A stretch of DNA of 64,000 nt, taken from positions 15,201,713-15,265,712 of the forward strand of contig NC_092574.1 of assembly GCF_037975245.1 (NCBI RefSeq), read 5' to 3'. The position numbers and the translations under genes are program-made. Each line of letters opens with the position of its first letter. Position 1 is the first letter of the stretch. Positions 1-56,400 of the stretch are shown in pieces. The notes beneath the pieces were generated by a model, which was given only the letters and a program-made list of their open reading frames with translations, searched no databases and was not told the DNA's origin. Source of the DNA: Apostichopus japonicus. Lineage: Eukaryota; Echinodermata; Holothuroidea; Aspidochirotida; Stichopodidae.

Positions 1-6574
<6,574 letters not shown>

Positions 6575-7061: not shown

Positions 7062-7499
7062 CTAAAAACCAGGGTTCGGTTTCTTCCGGCGGGAAGAACA
7101 TATTTCTTCCGGGGACGTGGAAGAAACTGGAAGAAACGGGTTTCTTCCGGAAGAAACTGAAAATTGGCATATACGAAGCACAACCCACTTACATGATAAA
7201 GAGACAAATAGTTTAGGATACCACCATCTCACTGAAATGAATACCATTGAATTAAACCATCAAAATATTGGATTTTTGTTTTGTTGAATTTTGGGTTGTT
7301 TTTTCTACACCAAAAAATGTTTGCTTATAAACCACAATATTGAAGGACTATCATCTCGTGATCCCCCCATCCCAGTTTATCAGCTCCATTGTAACTGTAA
7401 CAATTCAGGCTTCAGGAGTAGGATTGAAGCATATGGTCATAGTGGTCAATGTAATCGTAGCAATGAGTGTGCGTTGTACTAGGCCTACACTTTTTTTTT

Positions 7500-7700
7500 A
7501 AAGGAAAAGTCGCCCAAGAAAGAACCTGGGCACGAAAACCAAACTACCAAACGACTGATCCGCTCTCAGCCCGTCCCCTTGCATCGGGACTGTGACTGTG
7601 TCATCACCGTCGGTTGTGCATCGCCATTCCCCTCGAAAGGGAACAGATACTACACTAGTTTCCAGGGAACATTTGCCCCTCCACTCAGAAACTATAGTTT
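7500..7700. other. GC-richer unique block of unknown nature
   Basis: About 200 bp with higher GC than its surroundings, lying between the outer element end and the inner one. It could be a fragment of the outer hAT-like element's interior. I see no coding or RNA feature. Confidence 0.3.
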
Positions 7701-7855
7701 TTAACTAAGAACTGAGCTTTAATCAGGACCATTCTGGTCTGCAAAATATTGCTTGTTCTCTGAATTGTCCGATGCTAGTAGCCTAGTACTAAATTGTGTA
7801 CAGTATACAGGTGCGTATCCAGGGGGGGGGGGCGTTGGGGGCGCGCCCCCCGGGT

Positions 7856-7977
7856 AAGGAAAAGAGGAGAGAAAAAAAGAGAAGGGAAAAGGGAAAAGGA
7901 GGGGGAAAAAGAAAAGGAGGAGAGAAAGGAAGGGAAAAGAAAAAGAAAAAAGAGAGAAAAGGGAGAAAAGGAGGGAG
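7856..7977 (+). repeat. 122-nt uninterrupted purine tract
   Basis: Every base from 7856 to 7977 is A or G, in irregular GAAAGGG-type patterns. Open frames on either strand here are by-products of the composition (Lys/Arg/Glu on plus, Phe/Leu/Ser/Pro on minus). Confidence 0.9.
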
Positions 7978-8269
7978 TAGAAGAGAGCCAAGACCTCGGG
8001 AAGAGAAAGAGGAACAGTCATAGTTAAAGCGCTGATCCCTATTATATACACAGGGTAGCCAGTGACAGATCAAGGATTACGGAGGGGGTGTGCGCCTCAC
8101 CCTACCCCTTACACCGACAACTCCATTTTTGACGTTTTCACTTTTCCTCTTTCACTAATGTATCTATATAAATACTACATATGGTCTATCATAACGCGTG
8201 TGTGTGTATGGACGCCTTAAACAATTGTACATATTGTAGTACAATTGTGTTATATGGAACCAACTGTGG

Positions 8270-8556
8270 CTGGTCTTGAACTCGACCGAGTCGTCGGGGA
8301 ACATGACGCATTTCGGGAAGGGGGCGACCGCCCCCCCCCCCGAGCAAATTTTCTTTATGACATCGCTAGTAATTTCAAATAGACAATGCTTAGATGCAAC
8401 TTACATGGCCTGGGAAGTGTCATTTCCAGCGATCTGGGAGGTATTTTCGGCCAAAATTTTTCTTGTACGCTTCGCGCCAACTCATGGTGGCGCTTCGCTT
8501 AGATAGTTTGCCTAAAGGCTTCGCCCCTCCCTTGGCAATTACTCGCTACACGCCTG
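8270..8556. repeat. subterminal repeat shared with other transposon ends
   Basis: Contains TTCTTGTACGC, GCGCCAACtcatggtGGCGC and CGCTTAGATAGT, also found at 13546-13590 and, inverted, at 38553-38593 and 38880-38920. It ends GCTACACGCCTG, which looks like a hAT-type terminus on the minus strand, but no partner end was found. Confidence 0.5.
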
Positions 8557-8786
8557 TTCGAATTTGTAAAGCAAAGAGCAGATATGTACATCATATCAGT
8601 GAGCTTTGAAATGCATGTTCCACGATGAACAGCCTCAAAAAACTGTCTATGTGTGTAGTCAAAGGCGTAGGAGCCCAATTGGATTTGGGGCTGTAACGAC
8701 TTGCCCGAAAAAAGCCGAAATTTTTCGCGCGCGAAGCGCGCGTTCAACATATCGATGCCAATATCATATAAGCAAGCATCGGTCAT

Positions 8787-9528
8787 TTAGTCAGGTGGCT
8801 TAGCAAATTTAACGTTACCGGCCGGACAAAAGTACCAAATTTGGCATGGAGTTTCTTTTCGACCTATCTATTGATTTTATCCGTGGAACCCACTTACTCG
8901 GCTCCGATTTTCCAAGATGGCGGCCAAAATCCAAGATGGCCGCCAGAAAAAAAGGAAATGTCATATATCTGGCTGTAAAAATCAGAAATGAACAAATGAG
9001 GGGTCAATTCAGGTGTTTCCGGGCTCACTGAAACAGATGATGATCATGGCATGTTGCTTGAGTAACCCACTTCCAAGATGGCGGCCAAAATCCAAGATGG
9101 CCGCCAGAAGAAAAGGAAATGTCATATATCTGGCTGTAAAAATCGGAGATGAACAAATGAGGGGTCAATTCAGGTGTTTCCGGGCTCACTGAAACAGATG
9201 ATGGTCATGGTATGTTGCTTGAGCCACCCACTTCCAAGATGGCGGCCAGAATCCAAGATGGCCGCCTGGAAAAAAAAGGAAGTTCATATATATTTATTCC
9301 CCAGACCCCTGTGCCCTTAACTGATCAGGACCATCAAACCTTCCATCCTCAAACGTGTAAATGAAACCGGGCTAGCACCCTGACTATATGTTATGGCTGG
9401 TATTCTAATTGTGTCCTTTTGGCTCAGAAAGCCACTTAGGACTTATTGTGGAACTTTGAGGTGTGATCGACCGTGGATACACACTGTCGCAAAGCCCGTT
9501 ATAACATGGGAGTTACGAGTGTCATGTA
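8787..9528 (+). repeat. left arm of long inverted repeat
   Basis: About 740 bp matching the reverse complement of 11896-12649 with scattered substitutions and a few indels. It contains three units of about 162 bp, each with two opposed CAAGATGGCGGCC-type motifs, then about 230 bp of non-repeated sequence. The match stops sharply at about 9528, where the left side jumps to LINE sequence. Confidence 0.9.
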
Positions 9529-9530
9529 CG

Positions 9531-9752
9531 ATGCTTGGGTTTTCGACCCTTCAATGTACCGGGTGGGGCTAGAGTTAAATGCGTGCAATATGCCGATGAC
9601 GTCACTTGTATTGTGTCGGACCTCGCCTCCTTCAAGCCTTTATTGAAGGTTTTTGCCACCTTCCAAGAGGCTAATGGTGCCAGACTTAACAAGACCAAAG
9701 GGCTGCATTTAGGAGGTTGGCATGGCCAACCCCTCCCGTTTTGCGAACAACA
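9531..9752 (+). mobile_element. LINE reverse-transcriptase fragment, plus orientation
   Basis: Translates to FNVPGGARVKCVQYADDVTC and on through ARLNKTKGLHLGG, matching the YADD region of the minus-strand LINE at about 10715-10930. It is an inverted partial copy, so the palindrome continues into the LINE. The left side lacks what corresponds to about 10940-11895. Confidence 0.85.
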
Positions 9753-9779
9753 CACGCTAATTTGGTTAGGTCAATAGTC

Positions 9780-11735
9780 ATCTAAGGTCAACCAATAACA
9801 CTGATAACCAATAACACAACAATATCAACCAATAACACCAATAACGAAGGCATGAAACCATAATTCCCACACCAACCGGACAAAGGGACACTCCAGCAAA
9901 AGGTGTTGCATAGTCTCGATGGCTTTACAGCCCACACAGGGATAAATCCCATCACCTAATTGCCACCAGACTAGGCGAAAATGGTAAGTGATGACGACCC
10001 CATGTGTAATCCTCCTCGCCAAGTCCCGGAGACGGCTATCTAGTGACTTACAACACACAGACCGCCTCACATCTGGATGGATGGCTGTTTGGCAAGCCGA
10101 CGGGCACACAGGCGCCAGCATTGAACATAACACAGAGGGGGCCACGTTCAGCAGAACATCTGGCCCACCCTCCTCTTTGATTCTACGAAGTGAGTCACCA
10201 ATCTGAGTATACACCCCCCGAAGGGCGTGTCGCCTTTGGCCGGTTATTGGAAAAGGACCCGGGCCGGTGGTGGCGAAAAGGGAACCCACCCCAGAACCTC
10301 ACAAAAAAGGCAAACAAGGGATTCTCAAACGCAACGAAAAAAACTTTCAAAAGGAGAAAGCGCAGTTTAGATGGTAGGTGGACCAGACCATGCCCCCCGC
10401 TCAAGGGGGTCTTTTACAGAACGGTCCTTTTCACAAGGTTTGGTTTGCACTTTCCCCAAATGAAATAAAAAATGATCCTCTCCAATCGCACCAAGGCATA
10501 ATCCGGTGCAGCGATCACCGTACCAGGATACCAAAGGAGAGGAACAATAAAACGATTAACAACTGTAACCTTCCCAGGGAGGAAGAGCCACCTCCGACTG
10601 AATGTGTCGAGCCTTGCCTCTACCTGATCAGCCTTCTCGACCCAAGTTGTGGCCTCTGTGGCACCATAACCTAGCCAGATGCCATTTACCCTGATCATGA
10701 CATCTGACCAAGTAGCATCAAACGGGAGGGATTGGCTGCGCCAACCTCCGAAACGCAGCCCATTGGTCTTGTTAAGTCTGGCACCAGTAGCCTCTTGGAA
10801 GGTGGCCAAAACCTTCAATAAAGGCTTGAAGGAGGCGAGGTCCGACACAATACAAGTGACGTCATCGGCATATTGCACGTATTTAACTCTAGCCCCACCC
10901 GGTACATTGAAGGGTCGGGAACCCAAGCATCTGTCCAGCGAGGTACTGAGCATTTCGCTGAAGAGAACATACAACAACGGGGAGAGGGGACAACCCTGAC
11001 GGACTCCCCTTCGAAACGGGAAGGGACCAGAAGTAAATCCGTTAACAGTGACCATGCTCGTGTGGTCCTTATATAGTAACGAGACCCGACGAATAAACAC
11101 TGAGTTCAATCCGAAGGACTCTAAGGATCTGAACAGAAAGTCGTGATCTACCATGTCAAAGGCCTTCTCCTGCTGGTCCAAGGAGACCAGTGCACATGGC
11201 AAATCACGAACTTTAACAAACTCGATCAAGTTTCTCATCAACCAGAGGTTATGTTGAATACACTTGCCTCGCACAGCACAAGTCTGGAGAGGACCTACAA
11301 TATCAGGCATCACATCCGCTAAGCGATTTCCTAATGCTTTGGCCAGGATTTTGAAGTCCACATTTAACAGTGTTATTGGACGCCTATTAGGGTCCAAAGG
11401 GTCTTCCGACTTTGGGAGGAGAACAATATTTGTGATTGGTTCATGAAATTCAACTGGAAATCGGTAGCGAACACGTCTCTCAAGTCCCCACCGAGAACCT
11501 CCCAGACGGTCCTATAGAACTCAGCAGGGAAGCCATCGGGACCGGGAGACATTCCCTTCTTCATCGCTGCTACCGCTGTCCAGAGCTCACCAACGGAGAG
11601 ATTTGAACCCAAGCTATCGTTTTTACTCTGAGGGGGGGGGGGGCTTGTCTATACCAGACAACAAGTCTTCCTGGAGATCCTCGCTAACAGCTGCCCTGGA
11701 GTACAGGTTCGAAACGAACGACATAAATACCTCAG
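9780..11735 (-). mobile_element. degenerate LINE (L1/Tx1-like), reverse transcriptase to 3' end
   Basis: Minus-strand remnant of a non-LTR retrotransposon. Order: pre-RT segment near 11640-11735, RT start SPGPDGFPAEFYRTVW (about 11470-11560), a frameshift, RT core with RPITLLNVDFKILAKAL, RQGCPLSPLLY and YADD (10414-11397), a stop and frameshift at about 10400, then a C-terminal zinc-knuckle-like part, C-x2-C ending ETMQHLLLECPF (9825-10289). The 3' tail at 9775-9840 is made of GTTATTGGT-type repeats. No endonuclease ORF is preserved. RT wording favours the L1/Tx1 group. Confidence 0.85.
10414..11397 (-). pseudogene. LINE reverse transcriptase core, open for 327 codons but broken at both sides
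   Basis: Contains the LLNVDFKILAKALGNRL start of the RT fingers, a QQEKAFDMVDH segment where family members usually have DxxKAFDxVxH (an extra Gln is present), RRGVRQGCPLSPLLY and the catalytic YADD, then the thumb region with LPGKVTVVNRFIVPLLWYPG. Upstream and downstream parts of the ORF continue in other frames, so it is no longer a working gene. Confidence 0.85.
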
Positions 11736-11895
11736 ATGACTAGTGACCTGACTTAGCGTGTGTTGTTCGCACAATTGACGTTGTGTTTATGAAGGGTGAA
11801 CAATCGTACGAAATTTCCCAATGAGTCGGTATTTACATCTGGTCAGATTTCCCTCAAGTTACCCTATTATATAGTTGACTCAATGTTATCAGTCT

Positions 11896-12649
11896 TACAT
11901 GACACTCGTAACTCCCATGTTATAACGGGCTTTGCGACAGTGTGTATCCACGGTCGATCACACCTCAAAGTTCCACAATAAGTCCTAAGTGGCTTTCTGA
12001 GCCAAAGTGACACAATAAGAATACCAGTCATAACATATAGTCAGGGTGCTAGCCCGGTTTCATTTACACGTTTGAGGACGGAAGGTTTGATGGTCCCGAT
12101 CAGTAAAGGGCACAGGGGTTCTGGGGAATAAATATATATGAAATTTCCGTTTTTTTCCAGGCGGCCATCTTGGATTCTGGCCGCCATCTTGGAAGTGGGT
12201 GGCTCAAGCAACATACCATGACCATCATCTGTTTCAGTGAGCCCGGAAACACCTGAATTGACCCCTCATTTGTTCATCTCCGATTTTTACAGCCAGATAT
12301 ATGACATTTCCTTTTTTTCTGGCGGCCATCTTGGATTTTGGCCGCCATCTTGGAAGTGGGTTACTCAAGCAATATGCCATGATCATCATCTGTTTCAGTG
12401 ACCCCGGAAACACCTGAATTGACCCCTCATTTGTTCATTTCTGATTTTTACAGCCAGATATATGACAATTCCTTTTTTTCTGGCGGCCATCTTGGATTTT
12501 GGTCGCCATCTTGGAAAATCGGAGCCGAGTAAGTGGGTTCCACGGATAAAATCAATAGATGGGTCGAAAAGAAACTCCATGCCAAATTTGGTACTTTTGT
12601 CCGACCGGTAACGTTAAGGCTGAAAATTGTTGCTAAGCCACCTGACTAA
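11896..12649 (-). repeat. right arm of long inverted repeat
   Basis: Inverted partner of 8787-9528. It holds the same three 162-bp units (about 12130-12520) and ends at the shared TTGCTAAGCCACCTGACTAA boundary. About 14 extra bases lie next to the outer boundary compared with the left arm. Confidence 0.9.
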
Positions 12650-13902
12650 TTACATCGTATGGCATCGTGTACCGCACGGTCCGTCAAAGTTGCACAGTAT
12701 ACCGCCGGATGCTAATGTAAACAACCAAATGTCTTATGTAGATGGAGAAAAACCATACAGATCCATTTATGTCAAAACTCTCTTTTACAGGAGTAATGTC
12801 GGCCAAGCTTACAACTTTATTTTAATTACCAAGGAGATCATTTATAAGCTATTCATTGCTACTTAGTTTTCTTTCAGCAGGTGCCCGAAAAAAATTTGGT
12901 TACGGGGGGGGGGGGGGGGGCTGCAGCCCCCGCCTCCTACGGGACCTACGCCTATGTGTGTAGTGTTCGGTTTCGATATACCTGATATCGGAAATATCTG
13001 CTATTTTTCATTTCCTTCAACCAAGTTTTATAATAGTCATTATAAGAGGTTGCAATATTTCTACACCAATAAATTAACTGTGTCGGAATTTTCGAAAATT
13101 TCCTCACCAACATTCTTCATCATACTTTCTTCTACTCGTTCAATTTTGACCTGTCTATTAGGGGTTCAAGGAGGTTTTTCTATATTGGTTGTCCATAGAT
13201 TGAATTTTGTGCAACATTATGGGTATGTTTTGAAGTGATTTTTATTCACGAGAAATGTGAATTTTCAAATTCTTAACAAATAATGGGCTTAAAACCTTGA
13301 AAAGTGGGGCTTCCGGATATTGTGGGCCGTGACGTAGGATCACCTACAAAAGCAATGATCCATAGGACATGCAATGAGGTCGAACATGATGTGTGACTGG
13401 TTACAATCTTCAAAAAGGTTATGGATGAAAAAAAAACTTTTGGGAAATACTTGGTTCTCAGGCAAAAGTGTACATTTGCTTGGTCATTTTCAAGCCCGAG
13501 AAGTGACATTTCCGGTGATCTGGGGGGTATCAAAACCAGAAATTTTCTTGTACGCTGCGCGCCAACCGATGGTGGCGCTCCGCTTAGATGGTAATTCGCG
13601 CCCCCCGGGTTAGAAAATCCTGGATACGCGCCTGGTATATGCTGGAAGCAGGTCATGTGCTCCAAACCTAGGTATAGACTACCAAAATGACGCTGTATTG
13701 CTTCTTGTCCATTCATTACATATAGTTAGAAATCATTGCAGATTGTTACGAAACTTTATCAACAATTTTCGCCAAAAAATGAGTTTCTTCCATTTTGTCC
13801 GGAAGAAACTGGAAGAAACCTATTTCTTCCAAGTGGAAAAACCGCGGTTTTTCCACGGTTTTTTGTCCACCCCGGAAGAAACCTGCGAACCCTGCTATAA
13901 AC

Positions 13903-15533: not shown

Positions 15534-15914
15534 GAAACCAGGGGCGGATCCAGGATTTTGAGAAAGGGGGGGCCGACATCCCGATGGTAGCACTTTAGTG
15601 ATCTGCGTCCTGGGGGAGGGGTCTAGGGGGAGGGGCCCCCTCCCCCTTGGAAATTTTTGGTTAATTGTGAGTGCTTAGATGCAAAATGGTGAAACATTTC
15701 GCCAAAAACTAGAAAAACCAGAAACGTTGCAGACACGCTTTTTTGTGCACATATTTTTGCTCGATAGACACATATTTAAGAACGCTCAACAGTGCATGTA
15801 CAATGGATACACTATTATTGCGTCGATTCGTTTTTTCTTTTGCGCGAAAATTATGACGCCAGATTCACCCCAAGAAAAAACATAAAACAAGATATGTTCA
15901 ATGAGATAATTATG

Positions 15915-16008
15915 ATATACTTATTAATGAAATGGGGGTGTAGGCGGTTCTACACTATCTAACGCAACGCAGTCGCCAAGAACCTGAAGTATTTTTAAGG
16001 GAGGGCCT
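15915..16008 (+). repeat. subterminal inverted repeat, left copy
   Basis: GATAATTATGATATACTT through GTAGGCGG, CGCAACG and TTTTTAAGGGAGGGCC. Its reverse complement lies at 17831-17940 with a few differences. Confidence 0.8.
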
Positions 16009-16121
16009 GATAATAAGCGGAAACGGATCACCGACCGAAAATATATCGGAATTTGTGGATTATTTCTTGCTTCCTATTCAGGGGCGTAGCGAAGGTTTTT
16101 TTGTTGGGGGGGGGGGTGGAG

Positions 16122-16803
16122 AATTTGATATGCCGACGGATCTGGAAGTGGTGACTGAAATGGGGGAGGGGGTGTCTCCTCCCCTTTGGAAAATTTTTAG
16201 TTTTGAAACGTCCTTAGATGCAATCTGGTGTATATTTTAAGTCAAATTTGATTTGCCGACGGATCTGGAAGTGGTGACTGAAACGGGGAGGGGTCTAAGG
16301 GGAGGGGGTTTACCCCTCCCCTTTGGAAAATTTTTAGTTTTGAAACGTCCTTAGATGCAATCTGGTGCATATTGTGAGTCAAATTTGATTTGCCGACGGA
16401 TCTGGAAGTGGTGACTGAAATGGGGGAGGGGTCTAAGGGGAGGGGGTGTCCCCTCCCCTTTGGAAGATTTTTAGTTTTGAAACGTCCTTAGATGCAATCT
16501 GGTGTATATTTTAAGTCAAATTTGATTTACCGACGGATCTGGAAGTGGTGACTGAAACGGGGAGGGGTCTAAGGGGAGGGGGTTTAACCCTCCCCTTTGG
16601 AAAATTTTTAGTTTTGAAACGTCCTTTGATGCAATCTGGTGCATATTTTAAGTCAAATTTGATTTGCCGACGGATCTGGAAGTGGTGACTGAAATGGGGG
16701 AGGGGTCTAAGGGGAGGGGGTGTCCCCCTCCCCTTTGGAAAATTTTTAGTTTTGAAACGTCCTTAGATGCAATCTGGTACATATTTTAAGTCAAATTTGG
16801 CAC
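16122..16803 (+). repeat. five tandem units of about 137 bp
   Basis: Units start at the GCCGACGGATCTGG motif at 16132, 16255, 16392, 16529 and 16666 (steps 123, 137, 137, 137). Each unit holds a hairpin of GGGGAGGGGG facing CCCCTCCCC, then TTGGAAAATTTTTAGTTTTG and TTAGATGCAATCTGGTG. Single diverged copies occur at about 15580-15690, 38125-38240 and 39580-39670. Confidence 0.92.
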
Positions 16804-17830
16804 CGTAGACTTTCCATTTCGATATTATTTTTATGGCAGTCGGCAGAAGAAGAATTAATTGGGACCAATTATCGAACTGTGTTTTCTCTTTCACCGATCG
16901 TTGAAATAGTGAAACTTCGTGATGAAAATGTTCAGAAAACTTTCCGGTAATGAGAATATATATATATATATATATTCATTGAGCGAGAAACGTTAAAAAT
17001 TGTGTACAATTCGTGAGCCGTGTCCTTAAGTTTTCCACGGAGAACGAATGACATCTGCGATGACGTCATTCTGAACAGAGGATAATAACAACACGTTGTC
17101 ACACGATAGCACGACTCATGGGCTACGGCCTATACGGAAGCCTTTAATTCCATTTCTTTCACTGAGTTGCCGGCGATTCTGGCACTCGTCTAGCTGAGCC
17201 TGGCTACAGTAGCTATACTGACGGCCGTGATATTATCAGTTATTTGCCGAGAGGTTTTTAACTTGCAGGCGTCGGGTGATTGGATTGGTGAATGAGTTTA
17301 TCAGATGAAGAACTGGAAAATCGAAATAACCGATAAAGACGCTCCCGTTTTCCTTTTCTCTATTCAGCTTTCCTTCTTTCTTCCCCTTCCGCTCTCTTCA
17401 CCTATTCTCCTTTTGCCGACAGACCCAAAATTTGCCGACAGCGACCAAATTATTATATATAATATAATAAATCAAAAAATAAAACCAAAATCTCAAAGGT
17501 TTACTTGTTAACTCAATGTTTCATACTAACGAAGAATCAGCTGACTCTCAAGGTTCACACGAAGCTCTTTTAGATGCTCTTATAGCTGCATTATGAGCCC
17601 ATAAAAACTCGTGCACAGAAAATAGATGCATTTTGAGAACGAGACGCCCAGGCCGAATATAAAATATTCAAAGGCTACTACTGATGAAGCTCCTATAAAG
17701 TTTGAGAGCAGAAACTGGTCTAGTTGGTCATAAGAACCTACACTAGTCTCTCCTACTATTAACAGTACACTCAATTCACCTAATAGGTGCAATTATGCTT
17801 CACCACGAGGAGCATGCTATAAGTTCATGT

Positions 17831-17940
17831 TCCTTGGGCCCTCCCTTAAAAATACTTCAGGTTCTTGGCGACTACGTTGCGTTAGATAGTGTAAAACCGC
17901 CTACACCCCGTTTCATTCAGATAATTATGATATACTTGCT
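17831..17940 (-). repeat. subterminal inverted repeat, right copy
   Basis: Inverted partner of 15915-16008, inside the same transposon. Confidence 0.8.
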
Positions 17941-18225
17941 AACTGTGCATTGATTTTCCATGACAGTAATAGTCAGCACTATAGTACTGAGCCGTATCTA
18001 ATTAATACGTGATGTCGCGTAGGCCTGGTAATTGCCTTAGTTTCAAATTTGGAATAAAAACGATCGCGTTTCAGGGAAGAACAGCTGGATATATATTAGG
18101 CTTTTCTTTCACCAAGTTATGCCTATTAGGAATTTAAAGTACTCCCACATAAAAAAACGCAACTGATTTCCAAAAAGGGGGGGCCGGGGCCGGGTCGGCC
18201 CCCCCCTGGATCCGCCCCTGGAAAC

Positions 18226-36322: not shown

Positions 36323-38502
36323 CTTGTAACATGATATCAATGTTGAACTTATCTTTGATAAACTTGACAACATTAATAACTTCATTTAAATATCTCATAA
36401 ATTAATTAATCTGACATCCCTTATCAGAGTGCCATATCATTTTCTTATCAGTACAGTGGAAAACAAGGTACAAATTAATAAATGGAAATTTTATCTGCAC
36501 AGAAAGTAGTTTTTGCTATTTCACAAAATAAATCAATATTCATAAGCCTCCCTGTGTTTCCATCCTTGTTCTGATGCTAACAAGGGCTAATGACATGAAT
36601 ATATTGCATTCATTCTATACCCTACACTGCAGGTATTGTAACATTATTAGTACACATATTGTTTCTATGCTGCAGGTGGAAACTGATAACCACACATGCA
36701 TATTTTAACCTAGCATAGGCATAGCCTGTGTTAAAATTTGTTACCCATGCTATTTTAACATTCTGTGTGACAATGCATGGGCATGTGTGTGAGCATGTGG
36801 GGGGAGGGGGAAAGGCCACAAACTGGAAGATACAGTAGTATACTATTTCAAAACAATATACTATACTGTATTGACATTGTAATTGCCATAGCACTGTGTA
36901 GTTTTTAGTCATAGCTTCAATATACAAAACTTTCCACTATTGAAATATTGTTACATAACTATTCACGATTTTGCAAAGCATTTGGCAATAGCCTAAGGTA
37001 GGCTAGGATTATGCAATATCAGTTACTACATGTAGTGTATGTAAGCACTACTACTGCCTATTTAGTATTTGCTGAACAGTTTTGTCTAGCCTAACTCTAT
37101 AGTAGGCCTGGGGGGATGAACGTATAGCTTACCTGGGGACTAATGTAGATGTCAAACTAGGCCTAGGGGCTAATATATATGAAATTAGTATCCATGGCCA
37201 ATATGAAAGTATCTGGGGTAACCCTTGCCAATACTTATGATTATGAATAGGATGGTATCATGTTGGCAACCTTCCACAATGTAATTATACTGCACCATAG
37301 TCTAGTTGTGCGACGTTAACAAGAACTCTTTTTTTGTTTCAAGTTTGATCGATGGTACTGTCTAAGCTGAAGGAAAACGTTCCTATATATTTGTGAAACC
37401 TTGCACATATTTATTCGATAACTAACAACAATATCTACTATTTGACTAACTGTTGATGGACTGTCAACAAAACTATGGTACCTTGACCAAGCACAAAGCA
37501 TCAGCTTTTTCCCGAATGCAGTATGCCAGTACCAGGACTGTTCACGGACCTTACACGTGCGAGAGCCGAATCTGGAGAGAGCGGGCAAGTTGGATGTAAA
37601 CAATAATATATTAAGTGCAACATTACGTTTCTACTACGGACGGAGGTCTACAGTATACTGGGAGCTGAGATGAGGCAGTGTCATTCAACAAAAAAAACAG
37701 TAGTTTGTTAAAACAAATTGTAAATTTTTCATAACAAATTAATATTTCGTAGCAATACAAACAAAAAGGAAGAAGAACAAATCCATATGTGGTAATTAAA
37801 TTGTAATACCAAATTTATAAATTTTCTTCCAATGGTACATATAAACCTCCGTAATTGATCGTCTGATTGGAAAATCTGGGCCGTAAATAATGTATGTTAG
37901 TTACGGAAGCGTATAAGGGATGTCTATGGAAAAAGTTAAGATGCCGTCAAAATGTTAAGAGTTTTCTCTGCAATTTTCTGATGTGGGCGTGATTCATCAG
38001 TTTGTTGTAAAGTGTTGAATGGACGAGATGATTAGGTGATTACTTTATGAATTTTTCGAATCTATTATTATTTCGCGAGTATTTACTGATTGTCATATCC
38101 ACTTGCGGATCCAGGGCCTTTGTTTGGGAGGGGCCAAAGTGGCATTAGAGTGATATGGGGGAGGGGTGTAAGGGGATGGGGGCCCCCCTCGCCTTTGGAA
38201 AATTTTCTATTGCTGAATGCCCTCAGATGCAATTTGGTGCGACAAAAGTGTACAATGGTGATGTTAATTTACTTCTAAAAGAAATGTTTCCCAGGTGTAG
38301 TTTTCTAAAATATTTATAAAACAAAGTTGGGATCATCTTTCTCAAGAAATTATATTTCTCATAGGTTATAAATTTCTTACAACCAGCCTGTAACTGCAAA
38401 AATTGTGTTAAACTGTAAATCCTCATGCTCATACATTTACATAGCTCCCAACTCTTGAGAAGGCAAATGCTGGTCCATGCCACGAATCGCCGTCCTGGGG
38501 GA

Positions 38503-39579
38503 CAGGCGCGGCGGAACGGAAAAATTATTGTGGGGGCTAATGTATGGAGACTATCTAAGCGGAGCGCCCTAACGGTTGGCGCGGAGCGTACAAGAAAATT
38601 TTGGGTTTTTTCAAACCCCCAGATGGCCGGAAACGGCACTTCCCGAGTGTTTTATGCTGCGAATACCTAGCCCTAAAATATGGGTCTCAAGTCTGCAGAT
38701 TGCACGTAAAAGTCTGTACAAACATTGTAATTTTGTATATTCGATGGTGCTTTAAGAGAGTAGCTATTACTCGTAGTGTACTCGCAAAGACGTTTTGAAT
38801 GTGGTAAGGGCAGTGGCGGAGCTTGGGGTATTGGTCAGGGGGGGGGGCAAGAATGGTCTGTAGGGGCGCTTTCAACACTATCTAAGCGGAGCGCCACCAC
38901 AGGTTGGCGCGGAGCGTACAGAAAAATTATGGATAAAGATACTCCCTAGATTGCAGGAAATGACCCTTTCCGGGCCTTGCTAATTTGCAGATAAACGGAG
39001 AATAAATAGGTGTCGTCGCCATTTTGTCGGAAAATTACACCAACAGAATATGACAAATGTCAATAGGTATATGAGAGCGCAATAAAATAGTCAATAATCG
39101 CGAATAAGTAAAAAGTAGTGAAAAGCTGCAAAGGGCGCCAGCAGTCCATTTGAGTCCGTCCGGGGGGGGGGGGCATCCGCCCCTGACTGTGTATATATAC
39201 GCTCCGCCGCTAAGTAAGGGGATGTTGGAGAACTGGCTGAAATGAGGCAAGTCATTGGCCTAAGACGAAGTTGTGTTACGCTTACCGGTACTCACACTCA
39301 CTGCTTCCACTTTTCACGGGGCGTGAAGACGCGGTTGGGGTGACAATGTGGTCTATAGCCAGGGGACGGGCCGAGGGTCCCCCAGCAATTACTAAAATTA
39401 TTACACCTATATAGTATACGTGTGCATCGGACAGATCGACAAGTATGCATTGAAAAATGGGCAGATGCATGTTTCGGAGTCTTGGTAAATATTGGAGGGC
39501 TTATCATGCATTTGCCCCCTCAACTTTTTCATTGGGGGCTGAGCCCCCCAAGCCCCCCCCCCCGGTTCCGCCGCCACTG
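38503..39579. mobile_element. middle hAT-like element, perfect 8-bp target duplication
   Basis: Left end CAGGCGCGGCGGAACGG; right end, minus strand, CAGTGGCGGCGGAACCGG. Flanked by CTGGGGGA on both sides (38495-38502 and 39580-39587). Removing it restores a CTGGGGGAGGGGTATAAGG stretch typical of the outer element's repeat, which confirms the insertion. Confidence 0.82.
38811..39212. mobile_element. inner hAT-like MITE, 402 bp, 8-bp target duplication (7/8)
   Basis: Left end CAGTGGCGGAGC; right end, minus strand, TAGCGGCGGAGC, with the first C changed to T. Flanks GGTAAGGG (38803-38810) and AGTAAGGG (39213-39220). Too short to code for a transposase. Confidence 0.75.
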
Positions 39580-40216
39580 CTGGGGGAGGGGTATAAGGGG
39601 AGGGGGTGTCCCCCTCCCCTTTTGATTTTTTTTTGGAATCCTGGTGATGCCTACATGTAAAATGGTGGCACTTAGAAAGGCTTTTGTCACCCAAAATTTT
39701 CTGACAAATATGCATTTTTTTGTGTGTAACATAAATAAATTGAATAGTAGGTGATAATTCATTCTTTCCCGTGGCATGAAAATGTTCGCTGCTCGCCCCA
39801 ATGAAAAGAATTATAGGCTAATTTGAGGTTCAAATGATGCTGTAAAGGAGGTTTTATACTCTATTATGCTAAATGCTAAAGAAATGATGGTTGCTAAGTC
39901 AAAATTTGATGCCAATTTTTTTATGTATACTTGACAATTACAATGCGGTTTTTTCGGACGCTTGTGCGGGTCAGCGGGTTTGGGTGTTAGAATGCGGGTC
40001 TAATTCCCACGAATTGCGGGTCAGTTGGGAGCTCTGCATTTAATTTTAAACCAGAAAACGAAAAGGTTAAGACTAGTCTACCACTGCTATTCCTCTCGAT
40101 TTTTTTAATTTCCAATCATATGATTTAGCGGATGTTCGGAAACACTTTTTGGCTCACCTTTGGGGGGCCATGGCCCCCCTTGCCCCCCCCCCCTTGGATC
40201 CGCCAGTGGTCATATC

Positions 40217-44448: not shown

Positions 44449-47400
44449 CTGAATGGGAGAGAAGGACAAAAATAGCAGGATTGTTTCCTGAATGATGCAA
44501 ATAATTGGGAGATGTAAAGCTAACACAATTGGTCTTGGTATCAAGAACAATACACTGATGTTTATGCAGGAAACATCAGTAACCAAGCCTATTCCTGTCC
44601 ATGACATAAATATTCATGATCAATCTGTACTTTTACACAGACTCAATGAACGACCATAATGAGAGGTAGAAGTATCGCATATGATCCAGTATGACTATGT
44701 CGTCTTAGGACATTGCTGGCAGTAACCACGCCTTCTCCTGTCCATCTTATAAATATTCATGATCAGTCAGTACTTTTACACAGACTCAATGAACGACCAT
44801 AAAGAGAGGTAGAAGTATCGCATATGATCCAGTATGACTATGTCGTCTTAGGATATTGCTGGCAGTAACCACGCCTTCTCCTGTCCATCTTATAAATATT
44901 CATGATCAGTCAGTACTTTTACACAGACTCAATGAACGACCATAAAGAGAGGTAGAAGTATCGCATATGATCCAGTATGACTATGTCGTCTTAGGACATT
45001 GCTGGCAGTAACCGCCCCTTCTCCTGTCCATCTTATAAATATTCATGAACAGTCAGTACTTTTTCATAGCTTCAACGAAAAAGCTCTGCATGTAATTATG
45101 AAATATCAAATTCATCTGTATCTTCACAGTGGCATATATATTAGCATGCACTATTTAGTACTTGTTTCAAACTCTAACAGACCAACAGCCTTAAATACTG
45201 TACGAGCCTGTGTCCCTGTTAACCTCTAGATATGCAAATCTTCCATTTGTTCTTACTGTGCAAAAGGGCATCTGGCTGTAGGAAACAAAAAGCACCTCCT
45301 CATACCAAACGTGATTGTACTATCACCTGTCTAGACTGAAAGAGATGATAAACGCTACGAGACTTACACTAGAGTCCAACGATTTTACACCACGGTTTTG
45401 ACAGACCACATCACCGCAAGCACAGCCATGACCACATTCTTTATCGAGCCTCCTGCATACACATCGCTTTGTGTTACAGCTGGTCTTGCAGCCACAAGTC
45501 TTCCCCTGAAGAATGGAAAGAGGAATTAACAGTATTGTAATATTTCATGAAATTATGTCACAATGTATATCATCCATTGCATTAACTTCAACCATGGTCA
45601 CAGAGGTTCTAAAAACTTCATTGTTTCGCGTTGACTATTCTGAGCTGGTTAGTAGTCGACAATGTTTTGAGCTAACGATTTTCCAGGCTCGTAGTAAACT
45701 TTTACAGTCTGCATTCAAGCTACAGTACAATTAGAATCTCAGGCAATTTTTTGAAACCTAGCAGCATACCATCGATACTTTCATAGAAAATATGTTCATA
45801 TTTTAAATTGGGTTTGAGTAACTCTGAATCACTCCATGTAAATATTTTTACACATTATAAGGTACTTTTCCAATCTTACTAAGAGATCTATGTTGTTACA
45901 ACGATTTTAGCAACTCCTAATTGACAACAATTTACTAGCCACGGAATCCCAATACCGAATATTTTGTGTCCCACAGGCTTTCATTTCAAATAAAGTTGTA
46001 TTTTCGCTTGCAAACCGCTTTTAATATTATGCATACAATTATCATTTCCTGGTGCAATTTTTTGGGGGAATATAAGATACTTCTCTCAGGAACCGTACCG
46101 TTTCTTGAAAAGATGACTAAAGACAGAACTGTAGTCTTGATATGTCATAACCAAAGAAAAGCCAACACTGTGTAGGATCGTAAATGTTTCTATAACTATT
46201 CCAGTTTCCAAAATGTTCAACCTTTAGATTATGCTAAAATATCTGAAGTGCTCCTTTAAATGGGGGAAATGTACCGCCAAAGTGATAATCTCTGCTCCTC
46301 CGATCTAGGCCGACACGTTAAAGTTCATATGAACCAAGAGAGTACCCTTGGACAGACGACATATTTTGACAAATTTAATATCATGTTTATTTCAGGTGAC
46401 AAGAACTCCTACACTCTACTATAGAGGTCTGTTTTTCCTAATGAAGAACTCAACTAATGGTTTGTGTGTTAGACTAGGCACTCGAGCCACTTTCATTGAT
46501 GAGCCTCAGATGCTTAAAGGTTAAGAAGTACCCCAAATTAAATGTGGCTTAAAAACAAAATACATCCTGAACTGTGTTTCTAGTTGTCTGCAAACATCTC
46601 AAAATGCAAAAAAAAAAAGAAAAGGCTATTCTTTAATGAGTATGATAGAAAAGAGATTACGATAAATTCTATACACACTGCACCTGCATACCATCCTGGT
46701 TCACAATGCCTCTCACCTGTTTTATTTCTCTCTTGGGGTGACTCACTTGGGGTGTCGCCACCCAATCAGAATCATCGTCTGCGTCATCATCCTCGGTGTC
46801 TGAATCCCAAATTTCCTCTATTGTGTATCTTTCAGACGCCTTCAAAGAAGCAAAAAAATAAATTAGTAGAATTTATTATATTACAACAAGGGTATCGCAA
46901 AGGTGTTTACATTAAAGCGGCTCACATAAAGTCTCGCAGTTGTGACATCATTTCAACTTAGTTGTCCTTTAAGCAGCTTCCTTTTTTAGTTCAGTTTGAT
47001 AAATTGTGAAAAGAAGCTAAAGTTATTTTGACAGTCAAATTCATCAGATGCAGTTTCAGGTTCAAATCATGAAGAAGTTGACAATTCGGAAAGTTTGCAA
47101 TATTTGCTGTTCACAATGTTATTTATACCTAAATGAGAAGGGAAAAAAAAAGTGTCTCGGTAGCCAAAATGGTGAAAAAATTTATTCCAACTTATTAAAA
47201 GGTAGGAGGGAGGTACCATCTTAGATATACCTTCTATATCTCATAGCCTTTTTATATTTCTTCCAAAAAAAATGGGGGAAAAAAATCAATTTGTTGCCGT
47301 GATGCATTTTGTACACATATTGAATACTGGCATGTAAAAAAGTGTGATAAATTTACAAATAGTTTGGGCATTATTGGAAATGAGAGGTGTACTAGTGTCA

Positions 47401-53400: not shown

Positions 53401-56400
53401 ATTATATAAAAATATTAAAGGGTATGTAAAACATTAAATCCACACAATTAGCCTACAAATAATGCATTACTACACTTTGGAATTTTCTTTGGTATAATTA
53501 CTAAAACGAAATGAAAAAAAAATGAAAAAATCAAAAGTATGAATTACCTTAGCTTTCAATTGTAAGACTTCTTTGTCCTTGGCCATTTTCCATTGTCTGG
53601 TCTTCTCAGCGTCCTCCTTTATCTGTCTCATGAGACGGACTCTAGCCTGCTTCATCCCTTTGATATCAACGTTGAGTTTGTTCACGGTCTCGTCGCTCTT
53701 TGCCTTCAGCTTGATTATTTTGCTCTGTTCTTGGACTTTCTTCTTCAATTTAGACATCTCATCTTCTAATTCCTTCAGTCTTTTTCGTCTCTGTTCGCTG
53801 ATTCTAAGGTTTTGAAAAGAAAAAGTATTATTTGATTGGGTTTGCCAACTTTGCCTACATTGTTAAAAGTAGCTTATCTTTTCGATCACTTAAATCACTT
53901 TGATCTAGCAAAGTTTTTTTGCAATGTTTATTAGAAATAAACACAAACTATCGGGTGCGACCCAAAAATGGCTCGTGCATGAAGTTTTGGTTTTTACGGT
54001 ATTTAAGCAAATTTGTCTACAGTTTTCGGACGCTTGCCAGGGGAGACCGATTAAGATATTGTTTTTAACATTTAAGTCCATATTATGTAGTCAAAGCCAG
54101 CTGTCATGCATTCTCAGCATCAATTTTATGGGGGAGGAGGGGGAGTCTAGTGGGTCATGGCAAAGTCCTCAGTGATGATACTGGCTCATTGGCCAATAAG
54201 TTTGCGGTCCGCTGCATTAGCATATGCATCAGAACATCTGCATATACAATGAAGAGTTTGTACTGCCAATATTGAGTCTAATATGTAAAATTTTGGTAAC
54301 AAGACCATACACAACTTCAGCCCTGGTTATTTACTTGCAAAAGTAGGAAACTTGCCACAAAATAATTTATCCGTTAGTATACCATCACCGAATGCTATGC
54401 AAAACAAGTACAAAGAGTTTTTGTACATAGGAATCATTGTACTTTTTAAGAGACAAGTCTGCTTTAGTGCTTTACACATATTTTTACACTAAATCATTCT
54501 CTGAGTGTTTATGCCAGCTAGGCTAAAATCTTAACAGTGTTTCAAGAAGTAACATAAGGTCTCAAGGTATTAACATTTGTTTGTGACATTAATGCAACGA
54601 CAAAAACTACTACTACTATTGTACTACAGTAGCACAATATATATTTTTGTTCAGTATTTTCTGTGGTAGAGAAAGAAGATGCAAAGAAAAGCAAGTATCT
54701 TTTTTTGAGGTAAAATCATTTATTCCTTACTTGCTGGTGGCCGTCTGTGATTTATTAGTCTGCAGTGCTATGCTGAGTGTGTCCTTCTCTCTCTGCAAGG
54801 CATTTATCTGTGTCTCAAGACCCTTGATACTATCCTGGTAGTAACAAACATGTAGGCTAGATAACAGATACTTACAAAACATAGAACAGAAACATACAGC
54901 AGATGCCGGACAGAAACTTATCAAAGTTATCAGTATTGGCTCCTCAAGTTTTCAACAGTACTATATCAAAGGTTCTGACTTATTCTTAAATCTAGAAGAG
55001 AATTTGTTTAAGGAACAAAATGTTTTCAGAGAGAGGAAATGGCTTAATGATGATACTTAAATGCTTATTGAGAGTATGGGCAAGACTGCATGTGAGAACA
55101 TTAAATGACTTTTTAGCCTAATCAGAGCCAAAACAGAAGCAATTTGAAAGAGATTTAACATGCTCTAAAGGAGACAGATAAACCTAATCATTCATCACCT
55201 TTAAAATATAGATAAATCCTCTAAACAATAAAACAACAAAAAAATAATGATTTAAATATTTAAAACTTTAAAAGTTATGAGAGAGGGGTATACCATTTTG
55301 CCAAATGTATGTCATAATCATGGTGCCACCAAATCGTCTCTTATCTTTGTGCACTTTTGTAAAACAAGATGCAAACCTCAGCCAATGAAAATCAGGGCAC
55401 ATAATAATTACTCATCAGTTTACCTCATACTGTATTTTCATTATCTCCATCTTCTCTTCGCTCTGGACCATCGTGGAAGCCAACTCCTGCTTCTTAGCCA
55501 GAGCTTTATTCAGTTCTTGAAGCTCCCTTCCCAGTTGGGCCTGTCGTAGGGCTTGTTTGGTGAGATTGGGGCTGTTCGCATCAGATGGTTGTCCTGTATG
55601 GCTAGGACTTTCTTTGCCTTCAGGCCCTTCAGACTGCAGGAAGAAAACCAAAATGAGTCTATGTTTGAATTGTCGAACAGGGTTGTCCCATCATGGGATT
55701 TTGTGTATCTGATCGAAAGTATAAATTTGTTGTTTCTCCCCTAAAAATGATACCACGATATATGTTACGACAAGTAACAACTATTTTCTACTCAGATGAA
55801 TCCCATCACAATAATATAGTGCATAATGCTACATACACAAATTAATTAAATTGGCCAAATATCAGTATGAAAGAGATAGAAACATAGGAAACAACACAGT
55901 ACAAATGACATTATAACGCCAGCAACAAGATATTTAATCAGGTTTAATTTTGTTGTCGGTCGAATATGTGTAATCCATGGTATGAATGCCTACAACAAAA
56001 TTTCACTCTCTGTCCTAGTTAAAATTGTTTTGTTTTCTGGATAGTCAGTTACTCAGTCACAATATTGAAATATCATTCAGGATGGTTTTGACAAACAAAG
56101 ATTGGACCAACAAAAAAAAGTGAAGAAAATATTTCTTTCCAATAAAATCACAAACACAATGATATAAGGTGACATCCTAAACTGACAATGAGAAAAAGTA
56201 CCCGGTGCAAAAAGCTGTAAAGTGGATAATAGAATAGACGAAGGCCCGACCCTAATTTTACTTGAAATCACTCATCACCTAAGAAACACAAGAATGAATT
56301 AGCACTTTGAAGAAATAGTATTAGTTAATGATTAATCAATATAAAAACTAAAGAGGTTATGTAGAACAGATATGTTGCATAAAATTCAGGAAGGGCATGC

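Follow-up and report, generated by a model that had tools for sequence, protein, structure and literature searches.

A nest of three TIR elements with a LINE at the centre of an inner palindrome in Apostichopus japonicus

How did a block arise in which paired inverted ends, direct repeats, a long palindrome and a LINE lie one within another? The block occupies part of the window, by which we mean the whole 64-kb stretch of Apostichopus japonicus DNA that was analyzed. Three TIR elements are genuinely nested in it, L1 enclosing L2 and L2 enclosing L3, with a LINE innermost, and a rule scan of the window recovered the three pairs of TIRs and duplications in strictly nested order (Table 1). An earlier note had proposed such an arrangement, and its nesting, layer order and two outer boundaries are borne out by the ends and duplications present in the letters. 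Its broader claim, that inverted ends and flanking repeats mark each boundary, holds for L1 and L2; the palindrome has only an ambiguous TA, and no target duplication of the LINE was seen by eye. We consider it quite likely that the block was built up as transposable elements inserted one into another, step by step, by the mechanism proposed below for L1, L2, L3, the LINE and a repair patch. For the most part, this is ordinary nesting of known kinds.

Table 1. Coordinates of the nested elements and of their parts within the window
Feature	Position	Strand	Remarks
L1 target-site duplication, left (CTAAAAAC)	7062-7069	.	7/8 match to 13895-13902
L1 element	7070-13894		TIR CAGGGTTCG 9/9, 8-bp duplication 7/8
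L1 left end	7070-7157	+	TIR CAGGGTTCG and five exact GTTTCTTCC, both orientations
L2 target-site duplication, left (GTATA)	7803-7807	.
L2 element	7808-13634		TIR CAGGYGCGTATCC 12/13, duplication GTATA
L2 left TIR CAGGTGCGTATCCAGG	7808-7823	+
Extra end-like stretch inside L2	8395-8556	+	resembles L2 right end (13481-13634); unpaired
L3 target-site duplication, left (TGTGTAGT)	8652-8659	.	part of 13-bp repeat 8647-8659
L3 element	8660-12956		TIR CAWAGGCGTAGG 11/12, exact 8-bp duplication TGTGTAGT
L3 left TIR CAAAGGCGTAGG	8660-8671	+
Palindrome left arm	8787-9529	+	flank at 8787-8909, then 161-bp tandem units (8910-9275) and an inner part (9276-9529)
Inverted 212-bp copy of LINE segment 10720-10931	9530-9741	+	left arm only; 94.3% identity
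Innermost arm segment C, left	9742-9788	+	inverted match 9739-9788 to 11729-11774
5'-truncated, frameshifted LINE of the L1 group, palindrome centre	about 9789-11728	-	boundaries set by eye, to within a few bases
LINE repeat-like 3' tail	from about 9789	-
LINE C-terminal ORF	9825-10298	-	zf-RVT 0.0015, below Pfam cut-off
LINE reverse transcriptase ORF	10414-11511	-	RVT_1 1.7e-26
Innermost arm segment C', right	11729-11771	-	40/43 aligned columns identical, 4 gap columns
Right-arm spacer, ~120 bp	11772-11894	.	without left-arm counterpart
Palindrome right arm	11895-12649	-
L3 right TIR, CATAGGCGTAGG on minus strand	12945-12956	-	11/12 match
L3 target-site duplication, right (TGTGTAGT)	12957-12964	.
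L2 right TIR, CAGGCGCGTATCCAGG on minus strand	13619-13634	-
L2 target-site duplication, right (GTATA)	13635-13639	.
L1 right end	13783-13894	-	four exact GTTTCTTCC, 24-bp self-palindrome 13833-13856, TIR CGAACCCTG
L1 target-site duplication, right (CTATAAAC)	13895-13902	.	7/8

The two outer layers

The letters confirm the previous reading of L1 as a CAGGGTTCG element flanked by an 8-bp duplication. The match between its ends resumes 3 bp beyond the TIR and continues inward, where 75 of the 80 aligned columns agree, although the alignment has 69 gap columns. All nine exact copies of GTTTCTTCC in the window fall within 7079-7157 or 13783-13882 and occur in both orientations, as had been claimed for motifs clustered at the outermost ends; 0.6 copies were expected, and none of 100 shuffles reached nine. 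The shorter TTTCTTCC is less confined, with 11 of its 22 occurrences falling within the L1 ends. Exact CAGGGTTCG is present in the window only at these two ends, and when one mismatch is allowed it occurs five times, not above shuffles (mean 6.3). The case named in the earlier note as refuting the nest, in which the two CAGGGTTCG ends belong to separate elements, was not found: the window holds no other exact CAGGGTTCG, and the subterminal repeats are common to both ends. Folded as single-stranded DNA, the right end (13762-13894, the only end folded) gave a z of -5.87.

An 8-bp target duplication is characteristic of hAT elements (PMC3942097), whose TIR length is given as 10-25 bp (PMC3942097) or as 5-27 bp (PMC10741241). 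L1 has such a duplication (CTAAAAAC/CTATAAAC, 7/8), and its TIR counts as short on the wider definition (5-27 bp) because its ungapped length is 9 bp. L1 resembles non-autonomous hAT elements with Buster-type ends (PMC4298943) in its short TIR starting with CAGGG, its 8-bp duplication and its subterminal repeats, whereas the Buster1 subterminal motif is TGGGTCGCG and that of L1 is GTTTCTTCC. A hAT-like L1 with subterminal GTTTCTTCC repeats would have inserted first, producing the 8-bp duplication.

Inside L1, the CAGGYGCGTATCC element with its GTATA duplication, also described previously, is found in the letters as GTATA / CAGGTGCGTATCC ... GGATACGCGCCTG / GTATA. A second complete element of this type lies at 15539-18220 (CAGGGGCGGATCC, 5-bp duplication GAAAC), and the window therefore contains two CAGGNGCGNATCC elements that agree in TIR type and duplication length. 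Allowing up to two mismatches, CAGGNGCGTANCC occurs 11 times in the window, above every one of 100 shuffles. L2, a CAGGYGCGTATCC element making 5-bp duplications, would have inserted into L1.

L2 also contains the unpaired end-like stretch at 8395-8556, which counts against the explanation we favor. Two partners for its end at 8556, namely 7808 and a CAGTGACAG start at 8060, were considered and dropped, as the flanks differ in both cases.

Might the outer ends be chance pairs, leaving only the palindrome and the LINE as real? Structural rules set after the elements had been seen (CA start, span 1-9 kb) were applied to random order-1 Markov windows of 64 kb. None of the three rules found a pair in a small run of six windows; among 200 windows, however, the TIR and duplication rules were satisfied in 33 for L1, 9 for L2 and 2 for L3, which speaks for chance. 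By themselves, TIR and duplication are weak support for L1, and since its rule is so common in random windows, L1 rests more on its subterminal repeats and end similarity. For L3, by contrast, the 11/12 TIR with its exact 8-bp duplication, a combination seen in 2 of the 200 windows, counts in favor of the nest. The clustering of GTTTCTTCC at both L1 ends, unequaled in the 100 shuffles, the second L2-type element with its equal duplication length, and the strict nesting of all three layers make chance pairing very improbable.

The inner element and its palindrome

The 13-bp direct repeat CTATGTGTGTAGT (8647-8659 and 12952-12964) had been described as flanking the palindromic block. Its letters agree at 13/13 positions, but a composite reading is preferable, in which it is probably the 8-bp duplication TGTGTAGT of the CAWAGGCGTAGG element joined to five TIR bases from the L3 right end. 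Parsing at 8 bp yields symmetric 11/12 TIRs, whereas parsing at 13 bp yields two asymmetric ends. A true 13-bp duplication, with the block inserted by a process that leaves long duplications of variable length (LINE-type nicking or break repair) and not by an 8-bp transposase, seems unlikely to us, even though the repeat is exact and another inverted-arm unit in the window (15923-17918) has an exact flanking 19-bp repeat.

The palindrome arms are 97.7% identical over 743 columns, with 12 gap columns, and each holds 2.4 copies of the 161-bp tandem unit. All 11 exact window copies of AAGATGGCSGCC lie within the arms; a YY1-type reading of this motif was considered but not adopted, and a literature search on it gave no result. 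Long inverted repeats are a known long-read artefact, and the inverted block could in that case be an error of assembly or sequencing, derived from a chimeric or adapter-missed palindromic read. We find this scarcely credible, given that the arms differ by 17 substitutions in addition to their gaps, that the two sides of the palindrome centre are not alike, and that the block is enclosed by matching duplications.

How the palindrome relates to L3 is less straightforward. The arms are set off from the L3 TIRs by 115 bp on the left and 295 bp on the right, stretches that align poorly as inverted repeats, and the palindrome may therefore be separate from L3; it may be the L3 body or a further element within it. 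In its most explicit form, the latter possibility is a fourth DNA element (8790-12646, starting GTCAGGTGGC) inserted at a TA in a small CAWAGGCGTAGG element. Inverted similarity indeed starts sharply at TTAGTCAGGTGGC (8787/12649), with poor alignment outside, and a symmetric TA stands on either side of GTCAGG...CCTGAC. Nevertheless, the TA is palindromic and so indistinguishable from the arm, the inverted match CGATGCC, though weak, is found immediately beyond the sharp edge, and Tetris of Drosophila virilis likewise has an outermost flank distinct from its repeats (PMC4079207). We regard a fourth element as a tentative reading that deserves consideration, although we lean against it.

In the same source (PMC4079207), Tetris is described as consisting of a flank, ~220-bp tandem repeats, an inner domain and a variable middle, with 8-10 bp duplications, and most foldbacks, Tetris tentatively among them, are placed in Mutator. 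L3 is comparable in arm plan and variable middle and, like Tetris, shows no transposase of its own in the ORFs scanned, the comparison being one of layout and not of letters. As in a foldback, its arms are long and inverted and carry tandem repeats (743-column arms, 161-bp units). The 8-bp TGTGTAGT flanks L3, but the poorly matching 115 and 295 bp come between its TIRs and the arms. It differs from what is described there in the length of its units (161 against ~220 bp) and in its middle, which is an L1-group LINE. On the foldback reading, L3, with TIR CAWAGGCGTAGG, an 8-bp duplication and long arms with 161-bp tandem units, would then have inserted into L2.

The LINE and its copy in one arm

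The LINE reported inside the palindromic block is present on the minus strand (RVT_1 1.7e-26). Judged by its sequence, its reverse transcriptase can be assigned to the L1 group: besides the RVT_1 match, the best solved structure is LINE-1 ORF2p (1e-29), ahead of R2 (5.7e-15). Proximity to LINE-1 ORF2p and a zf-RVT-like C-terminus, the latter below cut-off, liken it to L1/Tx1 LINEs, from which this copy differs in being frameshifted and 5'-truncated, ending before the apurinic-type endonuclease region. Such a truncated LINE would have come to occupy the palindrome centre, possibly by being captured where the palindrome tip had broken. It is quite improbable that this LINE belongs to a family which, in the manner of a target-specific LINE, recognizes palindromic (foldback) transposons precisely at their centre or gets captured there; if true, palindromic DNA transposons would be recurrent LINE landing sites, whose arms would stay similar and be patched with LINE sequence through template switching.

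A separate inverted LINE piece in one arm had gone unmentioned in the earlier note. This piece, whose RVT_1 match (4.8e-4) is below the Pfam cut-off, lies at the point where the right arm carries an unrelated spacer of ~120 bp, and its junctions have 0-2 bases in common with the alternative template (by eye). It is probably a templated repair patch: the repair of a later break in the left arm would have copied in 212 bp of LINE, inverted, at the expense of the spacer originally present in that arm. Its K2P divergence is 5.9% against 2.3% for the arms, and since it is the more diverged, it may come from another LINE copy. Twin priming was dropped as its source because the piece is a duplicate and not a displaced segment; the 47 bp of palindrome arm separating it from the LINE also argue against that origin.

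Searches for relatives and the record of events

Pfam scans covered 33 of the 52 stop-to-stop ORFs of at least 60 aa overlapping the block (one of them, 9505-9777, in part), and no transposase family was found in these. The two non-LINE matches, Nudc_N (0.016) and AvrRpt-cleavage (0.06), are below cut-off and have no bearing on transposition. Searches with the LINE reverse transcriptase protein returned 5 pattern stretches from viral_contigs and 17 from genome_contigs, with no relative confirmed, and three DNA patterns had 0 matches in viral_contigs. A pattern scan with CAGGYGCGTATCCAGG returned 33 stretches; blastn of the window against them (E 1e-3) gave nothing, and none resembles the continuation of either L2 end by eye over 25 bases each, so they are taken as chance. 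Rfam gave no match at the gathering threshold, and ARAGORN (bacterial settings) found no tRNA. As these scans found neither a transposase nor an outside copy, the superfamilies were named from the ends and duplications, not from protein, and we use these names as putative ones. L1, L2 and L3 look non-autonomous in the present copy, and their cut-and-paste moves would have depended on transposases encoded elsewhere.

In Xenopus, Tx1L lies inside Tx1D, an L1-group LINE within a tandem-repeat DNA transposon. The block offers a parallel in that its L1-group LINE, too, is housed by a DNA transposon carrying tandem repeats, here as a single copy only; a search on the Tx1L-in-Tx1D arrangement gave no relevant paper among the matches listed.

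The value of the block lies in its record of events, as the layers yield the order of insertion. The LINE at the palindrome centre and the LINE piece patched into one arm are its unusual details, and the innermost palindrome may preserve the traces that remain when a LINE sits in the middle of a hairpin and one arm has been broken. If LINEs recur at palindrome centres elsewhere, such loci would offer a natural system for studying the access of retrotransposons to unusual DNA structures.

Nested inverted-end elements

The earlier note had described transposons nested around a palindrome, and in substance this was correct: the TIR and duplication pairs of L1 (7070-13894), L2 (7808-13634) and L3 (8660-12956) lie one within another. 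Comparisons covered the window itself and collections other than the host genome. In L1, the exact sequence CAGGGTTCG has only two copies in the 64 kb, at 7070-7078 and, as complement, at 13886-13894; with one mismatch its frequency is no higher than in shuffles. The flanking duplications, CTAAAAAC and CTATAAAC, are 7/8 identical. Support from the bare TIR and duplication rule, written after the elements had been seen, is poor, because 33 of 200 random windows (64-kb order-1 Markov sequences) matched it in the larger run (0/6 at first). All nine exact copies of GTTTCTTCC in the window lie at most 88 bp from the left tip or 112 bp from the right tip (3 plus, 6 minus), against a mean of 0.6 and a maximum of 4 in 100 shuffles, which bears out the proposed clustering in both orientations at the outermost ends; the shorter TTTCTTCC has 11 of its 22 window copies there. 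Past the TIR, the two ends agree in 75/80 aligned columns but with 69 gap columns, and the right end, folded alone, forms several hairpins (z -5.87).

In the portions of the literature cited, hAT elements have 8-bp duplications and short TIRs (PMC3942097), and CAGGG-type TIRs with subterminal repeats are known for hAT (PMC4298943). L1 is alike in ends and duplication. No transposase was found by Pfam in the scanned ORFs (33 of the 52 stop-to-stop ORFs of >=60 aa overlapping the block), so L1 would fit hAT by structure alone. In its left part, 7492-7700 has a T run on the plus strand and by eye resembles a retroposed sequence whose poly-A tail would lie on minus; Rfam gives no match to it.

L2 starts with CAGGTGCGTATCCAGG and ends with CAGGCGCGTATCCAGG (minus), with an exact GTATA on both sides. 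Its rule, matched in 9/200 random windows, occurs twice in the real one; the second match, 15539-18220 (TIR CAGGGGCGGATCC, 13/13), has GAAAC on both sides, so the 5-bp duplication length is seen twice. Past their first 16 bp, the L2 ends share little similarity. Within L2, 8395-8556 matches 13481-13634 in 116/137 aligned columns (42 gap columns) and looks like a possible further right end of some related element, whose left partner was sought and not found; the same stretch recurs at 38550-38645 and 38877-38989.

Around L3, the 13-bp direct repeat reported at the palindromic block is exact (CTATGTGTGTAGT, 8647-8659 and 12952-12964), although the duplication is preferably its last 8 bp, TGTGTAGT. 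This parse gives symmetric L3 ends, CAAAGGCGTAGG and CATAGGCGTAGG (11/12), and the resulting rule was matched in 2/200 random windows. The symmetry makes a full 13-bp duplication improbable, even though the repeat is exact and the 8-bp parse leaves CTATG as right TIR end at one side and flank at the other, which chance would give, by simple arithmetic, about once in 1000 cases. We prefer the 8-bp parse.

The palindrome and its LINE

Identity between the left arm (8787-9529) and the right arm (11895-12649) is 97.7% across 743 aligned columns, plus 12 columns with gaps (96.2% over 757 by BLAST, gaps counted); by part it is 98.6% in the tandem part, 98.4% in the flank and 96.1% in the inner part. 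Each holds 2.4 copies of a 161-bp unit, and the palindrome is built on the plan of Tetris (PMC4079207). Because the stretches that separate the L3 TIRs from the arms match each other poorly in inverted orientation, the palindrome may be either L3's body or an additional element inside it. All 11 exact window copies of AAGATGGCSGCC, which we take to resemble a YY1 site, lie in the arms (8910-9275 and 12151-12516).

The LINE (about 9789-11728, minus) lacks its 5' part; its RT ORF matches LINE-1 ORF2p (1e-29) ahead of R2 (5.7e-15) among solved structures. Segments C (9742-9788) and C' (11729-11771), the parts of the arms nearest the centre, adjoin the LINE's repeat-like 3' tail and truncated 5' side, respectively, so the LINE sits at the palindrome centre to within a few bases, its boundaries being placed by eye. 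The claim that the block contains a LINE thus held, but flanking repeats at every boundary did not, no target duplication being seen around the LINE.

Between the left inner arm and C, 9530-9741 (212 bp) is an inverted copy of LINE 10720-10931 (94.3%), where the right arm instead has about 120 bp of unrelated spacer; by eye, its junctions have 0-2 bases in common with the alternative template. A break in the left arm was probably repaired from the nearby LINE or another LINE copy. The piece is more diverged (12/212) than the arms (17/743), so either another copy served as template or the arms would have become homogenised at a later time.

Other elements and host sequence

Features in the window
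Feature	Position	Strand	Detail
Helicase piece, DEAD domain	3511-4050	minus	4.1e-7
KIF21A-like domain	53470-53862	minus	8.7e-27
LINE RT ORF	10414-11511	minus	RVT_1 1.7e-26
LINE C-terminal ORF	9825-10298	minus	frame differs from RT ORF; zf-RVT 0.0015, sub-threshold
Unit inside 15539-18220	15923-17918		73-bp inverted arms (97%); bounded by an exact direct repeat of 19 bp, AGATAATTATGATATACTT
Third candidate TIR element	38100-40208		CACTTGCGGATC / CACTGGCGGATC; exact 8-bp duplication GTCATATC
Array, unit >100 bp	897-1156
Array, unit >100 bp	8910-9291
Array, unit >100 bp	12134-12516
Array, 137-bp unit	16163-16799		within the 15923-17918 unit
Array, unit >100 bp	44577-45063

For a DNA transposon, a flanking repeat of 19 bp is unusually long. 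The third candidate contains more end-like stretches, at 38811 (by eye) and 39173-39185. Five of 21 tandem arrays have units above 100 bp, all of 137-161 bp, close to nucleosome length; three of the five fall inside described transposons. The window looks eukaryotic because of the KIF21A-like domain and the helicase piece, which reads RecQ-like with its letters judged by eye; both are likely exons of host genes.

Order of events

L1 would have inserted first, L2 second and L3 third, bringing the palindrome if this is L3's body. The LINE may have been captured where the tip of the hairpin broke, before or after the palindrome grew, and the left-arm patch would postdate the LINE's presence there or elsewhere. 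Nesting of non-autonomous transposons is common, and the window has a second nest (15539-18220) besides the third candidate element. What appears unusual here is the LINE at the palindrome centre together with the LINE patch in one arm, each so far a single event.
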